Shown piece by piece: positions 6,134 through 60,908 of a DNA stretch of 64,000 bases. Made by a program: the position numbers and the translations under genes. Numbering within the stretch: position 1 is the first letter of the stretch; each line of letters opens with the position of its first letter. The DNA lies in assembly GCF_001544615.1 (NCBI RefSeq), contig NZ_FCNV02000007.1, positions 1 to 64,000 on the forward strand, read 5' to 3'. The DNA comes from Caballeronia concitans. Lineage in GTDB: Bacteria; Pseudomonadota; Gammaproteobacteria; Burkholderiales; Burkholderiaceae. The notes beneath the pieces are model-generated. The model searched no databases, had not been told where the DNA came from, and saw nothing but the letters and a program-made list of their open reading frames with translations.

Positions 6134-7690
6134 CTATGCCGCCTGATCGAGCGCGGCCCGCGAGCCGGTCGCCAGTTCGATGATGCCTTCCTGCGAGATC
6201 GGCTTGCCCGAATGCCCGCCCAGCTCGCCCGCGATTTCGCCTTCGCGCATCACGAGCACGCGATCCGCCACGCCGATCACTTCAGGCAGTTCGCTCGATA
6301 TCACGATCACGCCGACGCCCGAGCGCGCGAGATCGTTGATGATTCGATAAATCTCCGACTTCGCGCCGATATCGACGCCGCGCGTGGGTTCGTCGAGGAT
6401 CAGCACGTGCGGGCGCGTTTCCAGCAGACGCGAAAGCAGCACCTTCTGCTGATTCCCGCCCGACAGCGCGCCCGCGTTCACGCGCGCGTTCGGCACGCGA
6501 ATCGACAGCGCGGCGATCGCGTCGCGCGCACGCGCATTGCCGCGCGCGATGTCCATCACGCCGGCTTTCGCATCGCGCCCGGCAACCGCGACGTTGATGT
6601 TGTCGCGCACGCTCATGTCGAGAAAAAGCCCCTGGCCCTTGCGGTCTTCGGTGAGATAGACGAGGCCCGCGTCGATGGCGTCGCGCGGCGTGCGCAGCTT
6701 GAGCGGCTTGCCGTGCATCGACACTTCGCCGCGCTTGCGTTCCTCCGCGCCGAAGATGAGGCGCGCGAGTTCCGTGCGTCCCGCGCCGACCAGTCCCGCG
6801 ATGCCGAGCACTTCGCCCGCGTGCAGATCGAGACTGCAGCCGCGCACGCGGTTGTCGTCGGCGATATCGCGCACGGACAGCACGACGTGGCCCGGATCGT
6901 AGGGCGCATGCTCCTTCTTGTAGAAGCCGGAGATGTCGCGGCCGACCATCATGCGCACGAGACTTTCGGCGGACAGTTCGTCACGCATCAACGTGCCGAC
7001 ATACGCGCCGTCGCGCAGCACGGAAACGCGGTCGCTCAACTCGTAGATTTCGGCCATCCGGTGGCTGATATAGATGATCGCGATGCCTTCCGCGCGCAGT
7101 TGCCGCACGAGTTCGAACAGGCGATCGGTTTCGCGCGAGGAGAGCGGCGTGGTCGGTTCGTCCATCACGAGGATGCGCGCCTTCGCATGCACCGCCCGCG
7201 CGATTTCGACGAGTTGCCGCTCCGCAATCGACAGATCGCCGACGAGCGTATGCGGCTTGAACGCCGCGCCCAGGCGCGTGAGCACGTCCAGACAGCCGCG
7301 CTCCATGCCCGCGCGATCCACCAATCGGCCGCGCCGCAGTTCGCGTCCGGCGTAGATGTTTTCCGCCACCGAGAGATTCGGCGCGAGGCTCAACTCCTGA
7401 TAGATCACGGCGACGCCGAGGGAACGTGCGGCGAGCGGTCCGTCGATGGTGACGGGCTGGCCGTCGATCAGAATCTGCCCGCCGGCGTCGGCCTGATACG
7501 CGCCGGACAGGATCTTCATGAGCGTGGACTTGCCCGCGCCGTTTTCGCCCATCAGCGAATGCACTTCGCCGGGATAGACGGACAGGCGCACGTCATTGAG
7601 CGCGCGCACGCCTGGAAACGTTTTGCTGATGCCGCGCATTTCGAGCAGCGGCGTGCCGGTGTGCGGCGATCCGGGGGATTCATGCGGCAT
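6134..7690 (-). CDS. sugar ABC transporter ATP-binding protein (RbsA-type, two ATPase domains)
   Basis: 518 aa with two fused ABC domains, as in RbsA/XylG/MglA. The first half has Walker [10 protein letters not shown], a signature-like LSIAERQ and Walker B ILVMDEPT. The second half has the divergent Walker [10 protein letters not shown] typical of this family, signature LSGGNQQK and Walker B VLILDEPT. The start overlaps the end of the ROK regulator gene by 11 bp, which suggests translational coupling. It energises import through the following permease. Confidence 0.95.
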
Positions 7691-24142: not shown

Positions 24143-25030
24143 TTACCCCTTGGTTACACAATTCGCACCAACGGCAACATTCCCGTTGTTGTACTTGCCG
24201 ACGATGTTGTTGAAGAGCTTCGGATCGACGGTGGAGAAGTAGCGCACCGCCACCTTCTGGCTCGGACGCGCGACGCCTGCGTAGACGTTCATGTCGAGGC
24301 CTTCCGGCGCGGTCTTGACCTTCTGGACCCACGAATCGAAGTCAGCCTGCGACATGGCGAGCGCGCGGAACTTCATGTCGGAGAAGCCTGCGCCGCTGTA
24401 GTTGGCCGAGATGCCCGCGTAGTCGCCCGCGTGATCGGCGAGCAGATGCAGTTGCGTCTGCATGCCGGCCATCGCGTAGATCTGGCCGCCGAGTTGCGGG
24501 ATGAAGAACGAGTTCATCACCGAGTCCGAGGTGATGCGGAAGTTGACCGGCGTGCCGACCGGGAACGCGAGCTGGTTGACCGAAGCGACGCCCAGATCCG
24601 GATAGATGAAGAGCCACTTCCAGTCGAGCGCCACGACTTCGACGTTGATGGGCTTCACGTTCTCGACGTTGATGGGCTTGTACGGGTCGAGTTCGTGCGA
24701 GGTCCGCCACGTCAGCATGCCGAGATACAGGATGATGGCCGCCGGAATGGCCCACACCACGACCTCGATGGCCGTCGAGTGCGCCCATTTCGGCGCGTAG
24801 GTCGCGTTCTTGTTGGATGCGCGATAGCGCCAGGCGAAGATCAGGGTGAGCAGGATCACCGGAACGACGACGAGGAGCATCGTGTAAGTCGCGGTGGCGA
24901 TGAGCGAGCTTTCCGCTACGCCGATCACGCCTTTCGAATCGAGCACCTCGAGTTTGCATCCCGAGAGACAGACACTGGCCAACAAACCCGATAACAATGG
25001 CGCTGCTAAACGGTGAGTATTTTCATTCAT
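24143..25030 (-). CDS. cyoA: cytochrome o ubiquinol oxidase subunit II
   Basis: 295 aa. Lipoprotein signal ending at LSGC (about residues 22-25), two membrane helices (about 41-63 and 85-107) and a periplasmic cupredoxin domain. The CuA cysteine ligands are absent, as expected for a quinol oxidase; the domain keeps SVNQLAFPVGTPVNFRITSDSVMNSFFIPQLGGQIYAM-type features in shorter pieces. First gene of cyoABCD, with its promoter in the 419-bp gap upstream. Confidence 0.96.
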   Translation of the reverse strand: MNENTHRLAAPLLSGLLASVCLSGCKLEVLDSKGVIGVAESSLIATATYTMLLVVVPVILLTLIFAWRYRASNKNATYAPKWAHSTAIEVVVWAIPAAIILYLGMLTWRTSHELDPYKPINVENVKPINVEVVALDWKWLFIYPDLGVASVNQLAFPVGTPVNFRITSDSVMNSFFIPQLGGQIYAMAGMQTQLHLLADHAGDYAGISANYSGAGFSDMKFRALAMSQADFDSWVQKVKTAPEGLDMNVYAGVARPSQKVAVRYFSTVDPKLFNNIVGKYNNGNVAVGANCVTKG

Positions 25031-25449
25031 TGCATTCGCTGGTTTTTTGGATCGAAGCGTCCTGGGAAGAACGCCGTTTCACGGCGTTGCGCCGCGACGC
25101 GATGATGCCACGCGAGATTTATCGCGATATTGCGAAAGTATGGAATTTGGTCTCAAAAGACGCGATTGCGACGCTGTGTCGCGCACGTTCAATCGTCTCG
25201 AGAAGTCGTATGGAAAACAGTGACTTTTGTGAACTCATTATTTTGACGGGGCCGCGCGCAGTTGGGGAGTGCGTATGAAACACACTCTTTGCGATGTATC
25301 AATTTTTTGCATCGGTGCAGACTTCTATTACGTGTTTCGTCAAATCATGTGGCGACGCCTTTTCGAATGAGTCTGAGCCGTCAAAATGTGAAAGCCGGTG
25401 TGGCTCATTCTGGCGAGTTATCCGGTTTTTAATGACCAATATCAAAGAA
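25031..25449. other. 419-bp divergent intergenic region upstream of cyoA
   Basis: No convincing gene. A 93-codon frame on the plus strand (24997-25278) starts inside cyoA and lacks a ribosome-binding site. The region is richer in A/T than its flanks and should hold the cyo promoter and that of the plus-strand periplasmic protein gene. I could not name a specific operator. Confidence 0.6.
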
Positions 25450-26184
25450 ATGAAAAAGAAGCTATTCATTGCGGCTGCCATTCTGGTAATGCCGATGCTC
25501 GCTCGCGCCGCTTGCGAGGACATGATGACGGGGTGGATGACCAAGCTGCATCCGGAGCGCTCCGTCGATACCGAACGCAGCGCGTGCAAGGCGTGGCCCG
25601 CGAATCCGCAACTGACGCTCGCGGCGATCACGCTGCCCCACGACGATCAATCCGCCGCGGTGGATCTCGAAGTGCTCGTCGCGGATAGCGCGTCGGGGGC
25701 GATCGTCGCGCATCTGTATCGTCCGAACGCGATCACGGACGATGCAATCCGCTTCTCGGACATCGCGATCGATACGGCGCGCTATCAGCTCACGCCGGCG
25801 ATCCGCGCGTTCGGCGTGCGCGTGAGTCATGAGGGGGCGTCGCGTGCGAATCCGTATGGCGAGACGTCGCTGAGCCTTTACGTGCTCGAAGGCGACACGT
25901 TGCGGCCGGTGCTCGACTCGATCGCGGTCGATCACGCGACTGGCGAATGGAACACGCAATGCGAAGGCTCCTACGACTCGACCACCCGAACCATCGCGAT
26001 GGGCCCCGCCGGCCGCGATGGCTACGCATCGCTGAAGATCGCGGAAAAGACCGTGCGCAGCGACACGCGCATGGTGAAAGACGAATGCGTCAGCAAGAGC
26101 GCCGCGCCGAAGCAGTCGAATGTCACGCTCGAATACCGCAATGGGCGATACAGCGTGCCGAAGAGCATGCAGGCCGGCAGCTAA
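25450..26184 (+). CDS. periplasmic protein of unknown function
   Basis: 244 aa from ATG 25450; the upstream in-frame extension lacks protein character. The MKKKLFIAAAILVMPMLARA signal peptide (residues 1-20) predicts export. The mature protein has early cysteines (Cys22, Cys43) and later ones (around WNTQCEGSYDS and MVKDECVSKS) that could form disulphides. The central AVDLEVLVADSASGAIVAHLY and AFGVRVSHEG strands recall a conserved periplasmic family in Pseudomonas and Burkholderia (PA3715-like), which I recall only loosely. Not part of a visible operon. Confidence 0.75.
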   Translation: MKKKLFIAAAILVMPMLARAACEDMMTGWMTKLHPERSVDTERSACKAWPANPQLTLAAITLPHDDQSAAVDLEVLVADSASGAIVAHLYRPNAITDDAIRFSDIAIDTARYQLTPAIRAFGVRVSHEGASRANPYGETSLSLYVLEGDTLRPVLDSIAVDHATGEWNTQCEGSYDSTTRTIAMGPAGRDGYASLKIAEKTVRSDTRMVKDECVSKSAAPKQSNVTLEYRNGRYSVPKSMQAGS

Positions 26185-26318
26185 CCGCTAACCACGAGCG
26201 CGCCGACTACTCCTTTCTGACTAGCGGCTAACCGTCGCGCTCCTCCGCCCGGCGGATAGTCGCCCAACCTCGCGCTCCCTATCCTCGCGATGAAACCTTT
26301 CATCACGAGGACAGGACG

Positions 26319-27137
26319 ATGAGCGTCGTCAACTCACCCGCGGCATCGTCGGTCACGGCCGACACCACTGCCTGGCGCGTGCTCTCCGCGAGCACGTTCG
26401 CGTTCAACATCTGCTTCGCGGTCTGGATGATGTTCGCGATTCTCGGCATTCCACTGAAGCAGCAGCTTCATCTCACCGACACCGAATTCGGCCTCATCGC
26501 CGCCACGCCCGTGCTGACGGGATCGCTTGCGCGCGTGCCGCTCGGCATCTGGACCGATCGCCACGGCGGACGCATCGTTTTCTTCTGCACGATGGCGGTC
26601 ACCATCGTGCCGATATGGCTCATCGCGTATGCCACCGCGTTCTGGCAATTCCTCGTGCTCGGGCTATTCGTCGGCATTGCGGGCGGATCGTTCTCGGTCG
26701 GAACGCCCTGTGTCGCGCGATGGTTTCCGAAGGCGCGACAGGGCCTCGCGATGGGTGTCTTCGGCGCGGGCAACTCGGGCGCCGCGTTGAACAAGTTCGT
26801 CGCGCCGGTGTTGATGCTCGCGGCCGGCACGTGGGCCATCGTGCCGAGGGTCTATTCCATTCTTCAGGAAGCGCTCTCGAACGTGCGCAAGCATGCAGAG
26901 GCGCGTCACGTGAATGTGACGATCGTCAACGATAGTGGATTCAGTCTCTTGGTCGAGGACGACGGCCTGGGCTACGATCCCGGCGATATGGGCTTCCTCG
27001 ACGAAAGGCACGTCGGTTTTCACATCATGCGCGAGCGAGCGGAGCGGCTCTCGGCCAGGCTTCAACTGACCGGGTCGCCCAGGCGCGGTGCGCGCGTCGA
27101 ACTCATTCTGCCAACTCATGCGCGTCAGGCGGTCTGA
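26319..27137 (+). pseudogene. narK'-'narX in-frame deletion fusion (nitrate transporter N-half joined to sensor kinase ATPase)
   Basis: 272 aa in one open frame made of two unrelated proteins. Residues 1 to about 175 are the first half of a NarK-type MFS nitrate/nitrite transporter: five to six helices, GIWTDRHGGRIVFF loop, and the NarK signature stretch GNSGAALNKFVAPVL. From about residue 178 it becomes the C-terminal HATPase domain of a NarX-type kinase: N-box ILQEALSNVRKHAEA, G1 box EDDGLGYDP, and HVGFHIMRERAERL. The transporter's second half and the kinase's sensor, HAMP and histidine-phosphorylation regions are missing. The NarL regulator gene follows 36 bp on. This is what a deletion from narK to narX, removing the reductase genes, would leave. 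Confidence 0.9.
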
Positions 27138-27173
27138 CGCGCGCACGGCATTCGCCGTCCGGGGATCTTCATC

Positions 27174-27860
27174 ATGACCATCCGCATTCTGCTCATCGAC
27201 GACCACACGCTGTTCCGGTCGGGCGTGCACGCGCTGTTGCAACGCACGCCGGATTTCGAGGTCGTCGGCGAAGCAGCGGATGGACACGAAGGCATCAAAC
27301 GGGCGAAGCAGTTCTGCCCGGACGTCATCCTGCTCGACATCAACATGCCGGGGCTTTCCGGCCTGGAAACGCTGCGGCTGCTCGTGCAGGACGTGCCTCG
27401 GGCGGCCGTGGTCATGCTGACGGTGTCCGAGGACGTGGAGGAATTGTCGGTCGCGCTGCGTGACGGCGCGTGCGGCTTTCTGCTGAAGAACATCGAGGCG
27501 GACACGCTCGCCGCGGCCATCCGTAAGGCGGCGGCGGGTCGGCCCGTGATTGCCGACGACATGACCGCGAAGCTCGTCGCGAGCATGCGCCGCCCGGCCG
27601 CGCAGACGGATGTTGCGCCGGCCGCGAATGCGTCGGTGGCGGCGTCCAATCCGCTCACCTCGCGCGAACGCGACATCATCCGCGAACTGTCTCGCGGCGC
27701 GAGCAACAAGGAAATCGCGCGCACGCTGTCGCTCGCGGAAAGCACCGTCAAGATCCACGTGCGCAACATCCTGCGCAAGCTGAATTTCACGAGCCGCGTC
27801 CAGGTCGCGCTCTATGCAGCCGGGCGCGATGCTGCGTCCGTTCTCACCGAATCCATTTGA
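27174..27860 (+). CDS. narL: NarL-type two-component response regulator
   Basis: 228 aa. Receiver domain at residues 1-120 with acidic pair IDDH near 8-11, phosphoacceptor Asp in VILLDINMPG (about 56), TVSED and the conserved lysine in GFLLKNIEAD. A GerE/LuxR helix-turn-helix covers about 160-222 (LTSRERDIIRELSRGASNKEIARTL and STVKIHVRNILRKL). Intact in all visible key residues. Its partner kinase gene immediately upstream survives only as a fused ATPase fragment, so it may be unphosphorylated or serve another kinase. Confidence 0.92.
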   Translation: MTIRILLIDDHTLFRSGVHALLQRTPDFEVVGEAADGHEGIKRAKQFCPDVILLDINMPGLSGLETLRLLVQDVPRAAVVMLTVSEDVEELSVALRDGACGFLLKNIEADTLAAAIRKAAAGRPVIADDMTAKLVASMRRPAAQTDVAPAANASVAASNPLTSRERDIIRELSRGASNKEIARTLSLAESTVKIHVRNILRKLNFTSRVQVALYAAGRDAASVLTESI

Positions 27861-27912
27861 ACGCCGCCGATGCCCCGAACGGGCCACGCGCGCGTCATTC
27901 GCCAGTCAGATC

Positions 27913-29121
27913 ATGAATCGAAACCACGCTGAAACCTCAATCTCTTCGACGTCCGCACTTCATGGCTTCGCGCCGCTGACGATTCGCGGGCGCAGCCTGC
28001 TGCCCATCGTGCAGGGCGGCATGGGAGTCGGCATCTCCGCGCATCGGCTGGCGGGAAGCGTCGCGCGCGAAGGCGCCGTCGGAACGATCGCGAGCATCGA
28101 CTTGCGTCATCATCACGCGGACCTGACCGCCGCGTGCAAGGCCGATCCGTCGCGCGAAACGCTCGAGCAGGCGAATCTCACGGCGCTCGCGCGCGAGATC
28201 CGCAGCGCGAAGGCGTTGTCGGAAGGGCGCGGCATGATCGCCGTCAACGTGATGAAAGCGGTCAGCGCGCACGCCGACTACGTGCGCGTGGCCTGCGACG
28301 AAGGCGCGGACGCCATCGTGATGGGCGCGGGCCTGCCGCTCGACCTGCCCGATCTGACCGAAGGCCGCGACATCGCGCTGATCCCGATTCTCTCCGACAG
28401 CCGCGGCGTCAATCTCGTCCTCAAGAAGTGGATGAAGAAGGGGCGCTTGCCGGACGCCATCGTGATCGAGCATCCTGCGCACGCGGGCGGACATCTCGGC
28501 GTGACGGACGTATCGGACATGAACAACGAGCGCTTCGGATTCGCGCGCGTGCTCGAAGAACTGGAGACGGTGTTCAAGACGCTCGGCATCACGAGAGCGG
28601 ACGTGCCGGTGATCGTCGCGGGCGGCATCAACAGTCACGAAGCGGTGCGCACGTGGCTCGCGGCGGGCGCGAACGGCGTGCAGATCGGCACGCCATTTGC
28701 CGTCACCGAGGAAGGCGACGCGCATCCGGAGTTCAAGCGCGTGCTCGTGGAAGCCACGCCGGACGATATCGTCGAGTTCATCAGCGTGACCGGGCTGCCC
28801 GCGCGCGCGGTCAAGACGCCGTGGCTCACGCGTTATCTGCGCAACGAAGAACGCATTCGCACCAAGATCGGCGCGCGCAAGCAGACGTGCCCGACCGCAC
28901 TCGAATGCCTGAGCGTGTGCGGTTTGCGCGATGGCATCGAGAAGTTCGGCCACTTCTGCATCGATACGCGGCTCGCGGCGGCGCTGCGCGGCGATGTCGG
29001 CAACGGACTCTTTTTCCGTGGCCGCGAGAAACTGCCGTTCGGCGCGGCGATTCGCAGCGTGCGCGAGTTGATCGAACTGCTGCTGACCGGTACGACGAAA
29101 GCGGCCGCCGCCGGCTGCTGA
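27913..29121 (+). CDS. nitronate monooxygenase-like FMN protein (nar-cluster type)
   Basis: 402 aa from ATG 27913, 52 bp after narL. A TIM-barrel flavoprotein: PIVQGGMGVGISAHRLAGSVA at the start, DAIVMGAGLP, EHPAHAGGHLG with the conserved His region, VIVAGGINSHE and ANGVQIGTPFAVTEE for phosphate binding. It has a C-terminal extension with clustered cysteines (CPTALECLSVCG and later GHFCID), absent from the shorter homologue at 49115. Such a gene is often found beside narXL; its reaction there is not established. Possible metal or disulphide role for the cysteines. Confidence 0.82.
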   Translation: MNRNHAETSISSTSALHGFAPLTIRGRSLLPIVQGGMGVGISAHRLAGSVAREGAVGTIASIDLRHHHADLTAACKADPSRETLEQANLTALAREIRSAKALSEGRGMIAVNVMKAVSAHADYVRVACDEGADAIVMGAGLPLDLPDLTEGRDIALIPILSDSRGVNLVLKKWMKKGRLPDAIVIEHPAHAGGHLGVTDVSDMNNERFGFARVLEELETVFKTLGITRADVPVIVAGGINSHEAVRTWLAAGANGVQIGTPFAVTEEGDAHPEFKRVLVEATPDDIVEFISVTGLPARAVKTPWLTRYLRNEERIRTKIGARKQTCPTALECLSVCGLRDGIEKFGHFCIDTRLAAALRGDVGNGLFFRGREKLPFGAAIRSVRELIELLLTGTTKAAAAGC

Positions 29122-60707: not shown

Positions 60708-60795
60708 GGGCGGCTCCGTTGCCAAGAATTCGACGATGCCAAGTGTAGGGTCTTCCATGCACGGCCACGCGTTTTTCGCTTAGAATGCGCCCTTC

Positions 60796-60853
60796 TGGAG
60801 ATGGCATTCCTCCAAACAACCGCCGGCTGTCCTGCCGGCTGATGATGCCTACG
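60796..60853 (+). ncRNA. fluoride riboswitch (crcB motif)
   Basis: The core reads GGAGATGGCATTCCTCC, then AAACAACCGCCGGC, a GCCGGC-type pairing and GATGATGCCTACGAG. This is the crcB/fluoride riboswitch consensus (GGxGATGGxxTTCCxCC, AACCGC, GCTGATGATGCCTAC), with its stem P1 and pseudoknot elements. It lies about 80 bp upstream of a CLC-F-type fluoride exporter, the expected target. Fluoride binding should raise expression. Alternative readings are unlikely given motif and context. Confidence 0.88.
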
Positions 60854-60857
60854 AGTT

Positions 60858-60908
60858 CCTGAGCGCAGGAGGTCGTGGGCCGTCCAAAGCGGCGTCCTGC
60901 CGCTCAGG
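60858..60908 (+). promoter_or_regulatory. expression-platform hairpin of the fluoride riboswitch
   Basis: CCTGAGCGCAGGA (from 60858) can pair with TCCTG-C-CGCTCAGG (ending at 60908), a 13-bp stem with one bulged C, followed by TTTGATG. An AGGAGG lies inside the hairpin but 60 nt from the start codon, so it is unlikely to be the ribosome-binding site. This stem may act as the terminator that the riboswitch controls. Confidence 0.5.

Follow-up and report, generated by a model that had tools for sequence, protein, structure and literature searches.

How a single reading frame can begin as a nitrate transporter and end as the ATPase domain of a sensor kinase, and why the cut that made it ended where it did, are the questions raised by a locus of Caballeronia concitans, a soil- and insect-associated bacterium. 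The locus lies in a stretch of 64,000 nucleotides (the window). Judging from comparisons with related genomes, it is likely that one deletion of about 10.5 kb produced a fusion without function, and that a putative promoter inside narX, serving narL and the adjacent NMO-family gene, halted further decay of the operon.

Origin of the narK1'-'narX fusion

The fusion ORF (Table 1) contains neither stop nor frameshift. Residues 20-168 match NarK (TIGR00886, E 6.7e-40), under the whole-protein cut-off of the model because only a fragment of the protein is present, and HATPase_c (PF02518) covers residues 176-266 at 42.5 bits, above its cut-off of 26.4. The latter is the sole NarX domain, as a domain search of the ORF at E 0.01 found none of the HisKA type. 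Alignment to relatives resolves the ORF into NarK residues 1-181 joined in frame to NarX residues 542-633 and sets the switch at codons 180-181, inside the region (near residues 175-180, about 26841-26861) where an initial annotation, made from the letters alone, had placed it. With 181 of 421 residues, the NarK part falls short of a full-length transporter; the NarX part lacks the sensor part and the domain with the phosphorylatable histidine and hence does not amount to a functional sensor kinase. The annotation had rightly described a putative product without that histidine, followed by an intact NarL, which has receiver and GerE domains. Its view of NarL as an orphan regulator agrees with the assembly, where, apart from the fusion piece, no other NarX exceeds 33% identity.

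In G064, the nearest of the relatives examined, this locus is longer by 10,538 bp, which comprise the rest of narK1, narK2, narGHJI and most of narX. Relative to C. grimmiae Lep1A1, identity is 88% for NarK1 residues 1-181 and 90% for NarX residues 542-633; downstream, NarL (87%), NMO (93%), DUF3079 (85%) and a hypothetical gene (86%) follow in unchanged order. The left flank is also that of C. grimmiae, with cyoA and the PA3715-family gene upstream, an extra DUF2167 gene upstream in Lep1A1 being found in neither the window nor G064. The C. concitans parts are orthologues of the NarK-narGHJI-NarXL locus of C. grimmiae and other Caballeronia, but narK2, narGHJI and the NarX sensor and dimerisation parts are missing. 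Relatives hold both parts as separate genes at one locus, and in C. concitans one frame spans the junction. At the sequence level, the comparison shows a single deletion of about 10.5 kb that put narX codon 542 directly after narK1 codon 181, with loss of narK2 and narGHJI and retention of narL and NMO. A deletion of this kind, keeping frame and taking out the remainder of narK, the genes for nitrate reductase and the sensor half of narX, had been proposed in the initial annotation, which left the loss of narK2 unmentioned. Its statement that narK, narGHJI and narX-narL lie together, made for many Burkholderia, holds for the intact locus of G064, the relatives being Caballeronia and not Burkholderia sensu stricto. 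The microhomology check that it advised gave the 3 bp CAT on both sides in G064. As a common mechanism microhomology was rejected: it amounts to 3 bp in G000, is not clear in G005 and is about 5 bp in C. zhejiangensis A33_M4_a, and so constitutes no rule.

Fusion of distant gene fragments in frame by deletion is described in an excerpt of a preprint by Kaul et al. 2026 (PMC12803068), which presents narX of M. tuberculosis as what is left of an operon for nitrate reduction. As far as that excerpt goes, the C. concitans case is alike in its distant fragments fused in frame by deletion and differs in the genes and genus, in being confined to one species and in a border that coincides with a candidate promoter; the two narX genes share a name and encode different proteins.

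Table 1. Positions in the window of the fusion ORF, its neighbours and candidate regulatory sites
Feature	Position	Strand	Details and basis
cyoA, left flank, syntenic	24143..25030	-	ORF list, synteny
PA3715-family gene, left flank, syntenic	25294..26184	+	Profile match, synteny
Possible NarL 7-2-7 site	26208..26223	+	Upstream of narK1; TACTCCTT common to 5/7 aligned genomes
narK1'-'narX fusion ORF	26319..27137	+	272 codons, single open frame; ORF list, profile matches, synteny
Deletion junction	26858..26860	+	CAT common to narK and narX sides of G064
Palindrome TGACGATCGTCA, inferred operator	26917..26928	+	Sequence comparison
Inferred -35, TGGTCG here (TTGTCG in most relatives)	26950..26955	+	Alignment
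Inferred -10, TACGAT	26973..26978	+	Alignment
narL, intact response regulator gene	27174..27860	+	ORF list, domains, synteny
NMO-family gene (PF03060)	27913..29121	+	Start 27913 from synteny; ORF as listed begins 27814

Loss of the nar operon in the genus

An NMO match was found in 46 of 58 genomes of the genus. The clade set comprises the 30 genomes with NMO identity of at least 83% in matches spanning no fewer than 388 of the 402 residues, G065 being set aside for its partial match (82%). In the other 15 the NMO is more distant (72-79%; partial in G008) and lies at loci other than narXL. The link between NMO and nar clusters drawn in the annotation therefore holds for this clade, where NMO adjoins narXL, but not for those 15 genomes.

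Half of the clade (15/30) has narG over the cut-off; the remaining 15, the window included, are without it. Keepers were defined by narG alone, whatever the state of the other nar genes, and in one of them, G081, the frames of narK1 and narH are broken and narG carries a stop. Another, G077 (L138, about 16025), has a narX without residues 263-438 and with a changed frame while its narGHJI looks whole; thus, the sensor can decay first. Other sequence, about 17 kb long, interrupts the narG of G020 (C27:138926-156233).

Loss-only parsimony on an rpoB tree of 43 of the 58 genomes gave 12 losses, 10 with nodes below 70 collapsed and 8 with nodes below 90 collapsed, counts that assume this single-gene tree and no regain, and in which four reduced or symbiont-like ingroup genomes without narG (G018, G026, G035, G065) are scored as lost. 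Losses sit among keepers with rpoB support of 100: G000 beside G064, G011 beside G004, and G066 with G009 and G081. A narG tree of the 15 keepers recovers the same two subclades as rpoB, with G004 placed elsewhere and a distance correlation of 0.75; some regain is possible, since this tree departs from rpoB in places. As read from these genomes, the nar operon has been lost repeatedly in the genus, with differing junctions. This repeated loss, and the candidate promoter overlapping the kept end of narX (below), go beyond the initial annotation. No mention of nar loss in Caballeronia, of a promoter inside narX or of a link between NMO and narL was found among the best-matching literature titles and abstract openings.

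On plasmid p1 of C. zhejiangensis A33_M4_a (L239, about 7060-7080), a deletion of 3,025 bp has joined narG, up to residue 453, to narH, from residue 221 onwards, with narX, narL and NMO kept and flanks 99.96-100% identical to G017. So fresh a deletion suggests that the process of operon loss is still running.

The right border of the scars and a candidate promoter inside narX

Of the 15 nar-less genomes, 10 gave tblastn matches to pieces of narX or narL, and blastn added G066 and G068; G071, G014 and G015 had no piece that blastn recognised. The left partners of these pieces are narK1 at codon 181 (G000) or codon 247 (G005), early narK1 pieces (G067), the narK leader (G021) and the narK2 end (G073, G078). 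The left edge in G066, G011, G068 and G001 is at 3607-3611 of L043, which by eye looks like the stop of an upstream gene resembling an ABC transporter subunit, and in G076, G078 and G073 it falls within about 14 bp of the hyp1 end. G005 (L040, 6580-8080) carries a second narK1-narX deletion, of 10,211 bp and with other breakpoints, together with a 332-bp deletion within narL. In G001 (L042, about 6620-7430), narX residues 383-579, with one stop in the alignment, run straight into narL residues 114-220.

Retention across the 15 nar-less genomes is 12.4-13.0/15 at -1000 to -900 from NMO and 3.2-5.0/15 at -800 to -475, in a profile that includes scattered weak matches further upstream because the threshold was E 0.01. 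The C. concitans cut ended 57 bp upstream of the element that most nar-less relatives keep upstream of NMO; its position is probably no accident.

The kept narX piece, 26917-26978 in the fusion, spans about 62 bp and consists of TGACGATCGTCA, 21 bp, TTGTCG, 17 bp and TACGAT, that is, a palindrome with the core TGAC-N4-GTCA followed by weak promoter-like hexamers. The palindrome is exact in all 15 narG-bearing clade genomes and in 13 of the 15 nar-less ones, the altered forms being TGAAGATCGTCA (G078) and TGACAAACATCA (G066). It lies 93-185 bp upstream of NMO in G071, G014 and G015, whose blocks were found through the motif itself (chance in 300 bp, 0.3-0.7% each); in G015 the hexamers are not recognisable. 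The full pattern with exact TTGTCG occurs in 19 of the 58 genomes, once each and at this locus only. Eleven of the 30 clade genomes fall outside it, among them the window, because its -35 is TGGTCG, as in G064 and G072. The palindrome was found neither in narX of the other Caballeronia clade (0/12; a 13th genome, G013, lay outside the coverage), nor in 16 more distant narX rows and B. ubonensis narX, nor upstream of NMO in 16 other genomes, including G065, where NMO lies in three frames. Palindrome, -35 and -10 are all kept in the nar-less strain Sq4a, which was added afterwards, and all present in C. zhejiangensis A33_M4_a, which keeps narX. Neither case is independent, Sq4a being close to G073 and G078 (95% in NMO) and A33_M4_a nearly identical to G017. 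By eye, the other Caballeronia clade (L168-L173, L175-L178, L180) shows a recurring GTCGAACTTG-TTGATAAA-CGCAA-like stretch upstream of NMO, perhaps a different operator.

The geometry of the narX palindrome fits the CRP/FNR family. Half-site and 4-bp spacing are the same as in operators of this family such as that of HcpR, whose cyanobacterial consensus is given as TTGACnnnnGTCAA in the excerpted part of PMC1274295. The left half is mostly GTGAC, however, and the FNR/DNR form TTGATnnnnATCAA is absent. The putative centre near -62 would be a class I activator position.

Match to the consensus in 13 nar-less genomes (G000 and G005 left out) is 0.98 for the operator, a figure that comes partly from selection because in 11 of them the palindrome served to position the block. 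It is 0.91 for the -35, 0.77 for the -10, 0.69 for the linker and 0.70 for the spacer (hexamers versus linkers in the 13 scars, p 0.0011). The -10 figure scores G001 and G068, which have 18-bp spacing, as shifted; with that spacing disallowed, retention of the -10 barely exceeds that of the spacer. Among 22 placements the hexamer pair ranks first, narrowly (0.84 versus 0.83). Scanned with strict settings, 26200-28000 yielded no promoter, and a scan of the same interval gave one terminator-like site, inside narL and within chance. Genome-wide, a regulon search with TTGACN4GTCAA returned 6 sites against 4 control hits, which is no signal.

A rival account is a neutral scar: deletion ends would fall anywhere, and what survives of narX would be no more than the stretch of a decaying gene that is best conserved and therefore picked up by searches. 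The piece does encode the conserved ATP-binding region, local alignments begin where conservation is highest, and -10 and spacer are kept to a similar degree. However, circular shifts of each genome's kept pieces reached the retention peak with its adjacent dip in 0 of 20,000 trials, both with all 15 genomes and with a reduced set of 11. The spacer, moreover, encodes the DDGxG box, and its match at codon positions 1-2 drops from 1.00 in keepers to 0.755 in scars, whereas in the same comparison the operator (0.97) and the -35 (0.90) hold and the -10 falls to 0.75; in G068 the elements remain though the linker has changed. The letters of the operator and the -35 persist without coding constraint, those of the -10 less clearly. 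A neutral scar is thus an unlikely explanation.

The favoured reading is that narX codons of about 561-581 contain a putative promoter for narL-NMO. A regulator, perhaps a CRP/FNR-type activator, would bind TGAC-N4-GTCA, some 62 bp before the start, and support the weak TTGTCG-N17-TACGAT promoter. With NMO under selection, surviving deletions would end upstream of the element, and later erosion would remove the remaining sequence up to it; the C. concitans fusion would represent a young stage of this repeated process. It seems moderately likely that codons of the narX ATPase domain hold a regulated narL-NMO promoter, probably served by a protein of the CRP/FNR type, that this promoter has set the right border of at least eight independent losses of the operon in one clade, and that the scars amount to a natural footprinting experiment, exposing regulatory DNA concealed within a coding sequence. 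The loss of an operon is usually taken for unconstrained decay, but in this clade losses that differ in age have a right border in common and one small element is kept. Were the promoter real, hidden promoters could be found from scars alone, the leftover kinase fragment would be explained, and the NMO-family enzyme would be what selection protects once nitrate respiration goes.

The similar right edges, like the disagreement of the narG and rpoB trees on G004, could also stem from a single ancestral deletion with a common right border, after which interspecies recombination restored the operon repeatedly. This is improbable given how widely the left partners vary (narK1 codon 181, codon 247, narK leader, narK2 end, ends of upstream genes), and the narK and narX pieces of the window have their closest counterparts in C. 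grimmiae, the sister of C. concitans on the rpoB tree.

Fate of the putative fused protein

In pairwise comparison with G064, the narK part has a dN/dS of 0.10 and the narX part one of 0.13, compared with 0.14 for narL, 0.07 for NMO and 0.14 for cyoA. With values like those of its neighbours and an unbroken frame, the deletion looks young. A full-length match to the fusion was found in 1 of the 58 genus genomes, the window itself; elsewhere the narK and narX pieces lie apart, or a genome has just one or neither (E 1e-20). The widespread occurrence of the same protein that would have spoken against a local scar was therefore not seen within this set. On the reading preferred here, a transporter part followed by an ATPase domain without a phosphorylatable histidine would have no function and would look intact only through the youth of the event; the deletion-born protein itself is probably an accident.

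Alternatively, the fusion might be a new functional protein, for instance a membrane-tethered ATPase domain that modulates NarL. The stop-free frame, the dN/dS of both parts and the possible NarL site still present upstream would suit such a role, but the absence of a HisKA domain, the merely partial transporter and the restriction to one genome argue against it. So does the lean of polarised amino-acid changes towards the window branch (18/49, against 10/36 on the G064 branch; raw counts, two parts together), and a functional fusion is accordingly very improbable. Assembly collapse of an intact locus, a danger flagged in the annotation, was rejected and is scarcely credible: although the assembly is a draft in 47 contigs (6.17 Mb, 99.97% complete), its best narG match scores 44.6 bits against a cut-off of 1084, its sole NarX-like piece above 33% identity is that of the fusion, and a comparable scar stands in the complete plasmid record of Sq4a.

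The possible NarL site upstream of narK1 (Table 1) was matched to the NarL 7-2-7 consensus. A search of the 180 bp that precede narK1 in 7 genomes found no FNR-like sites. A palindrome-like TCCGCC-CGGCGGATA at about 26246-26260, also upstream of narK1, is kept in 7 aligned genomes. At Rfam gathering scores no known structured RNA was found at the narX block, the sole listing being a fluoride riboswitch elsewhere in the window (RF01734, 51.4 bits; 60788-60858, + strand).
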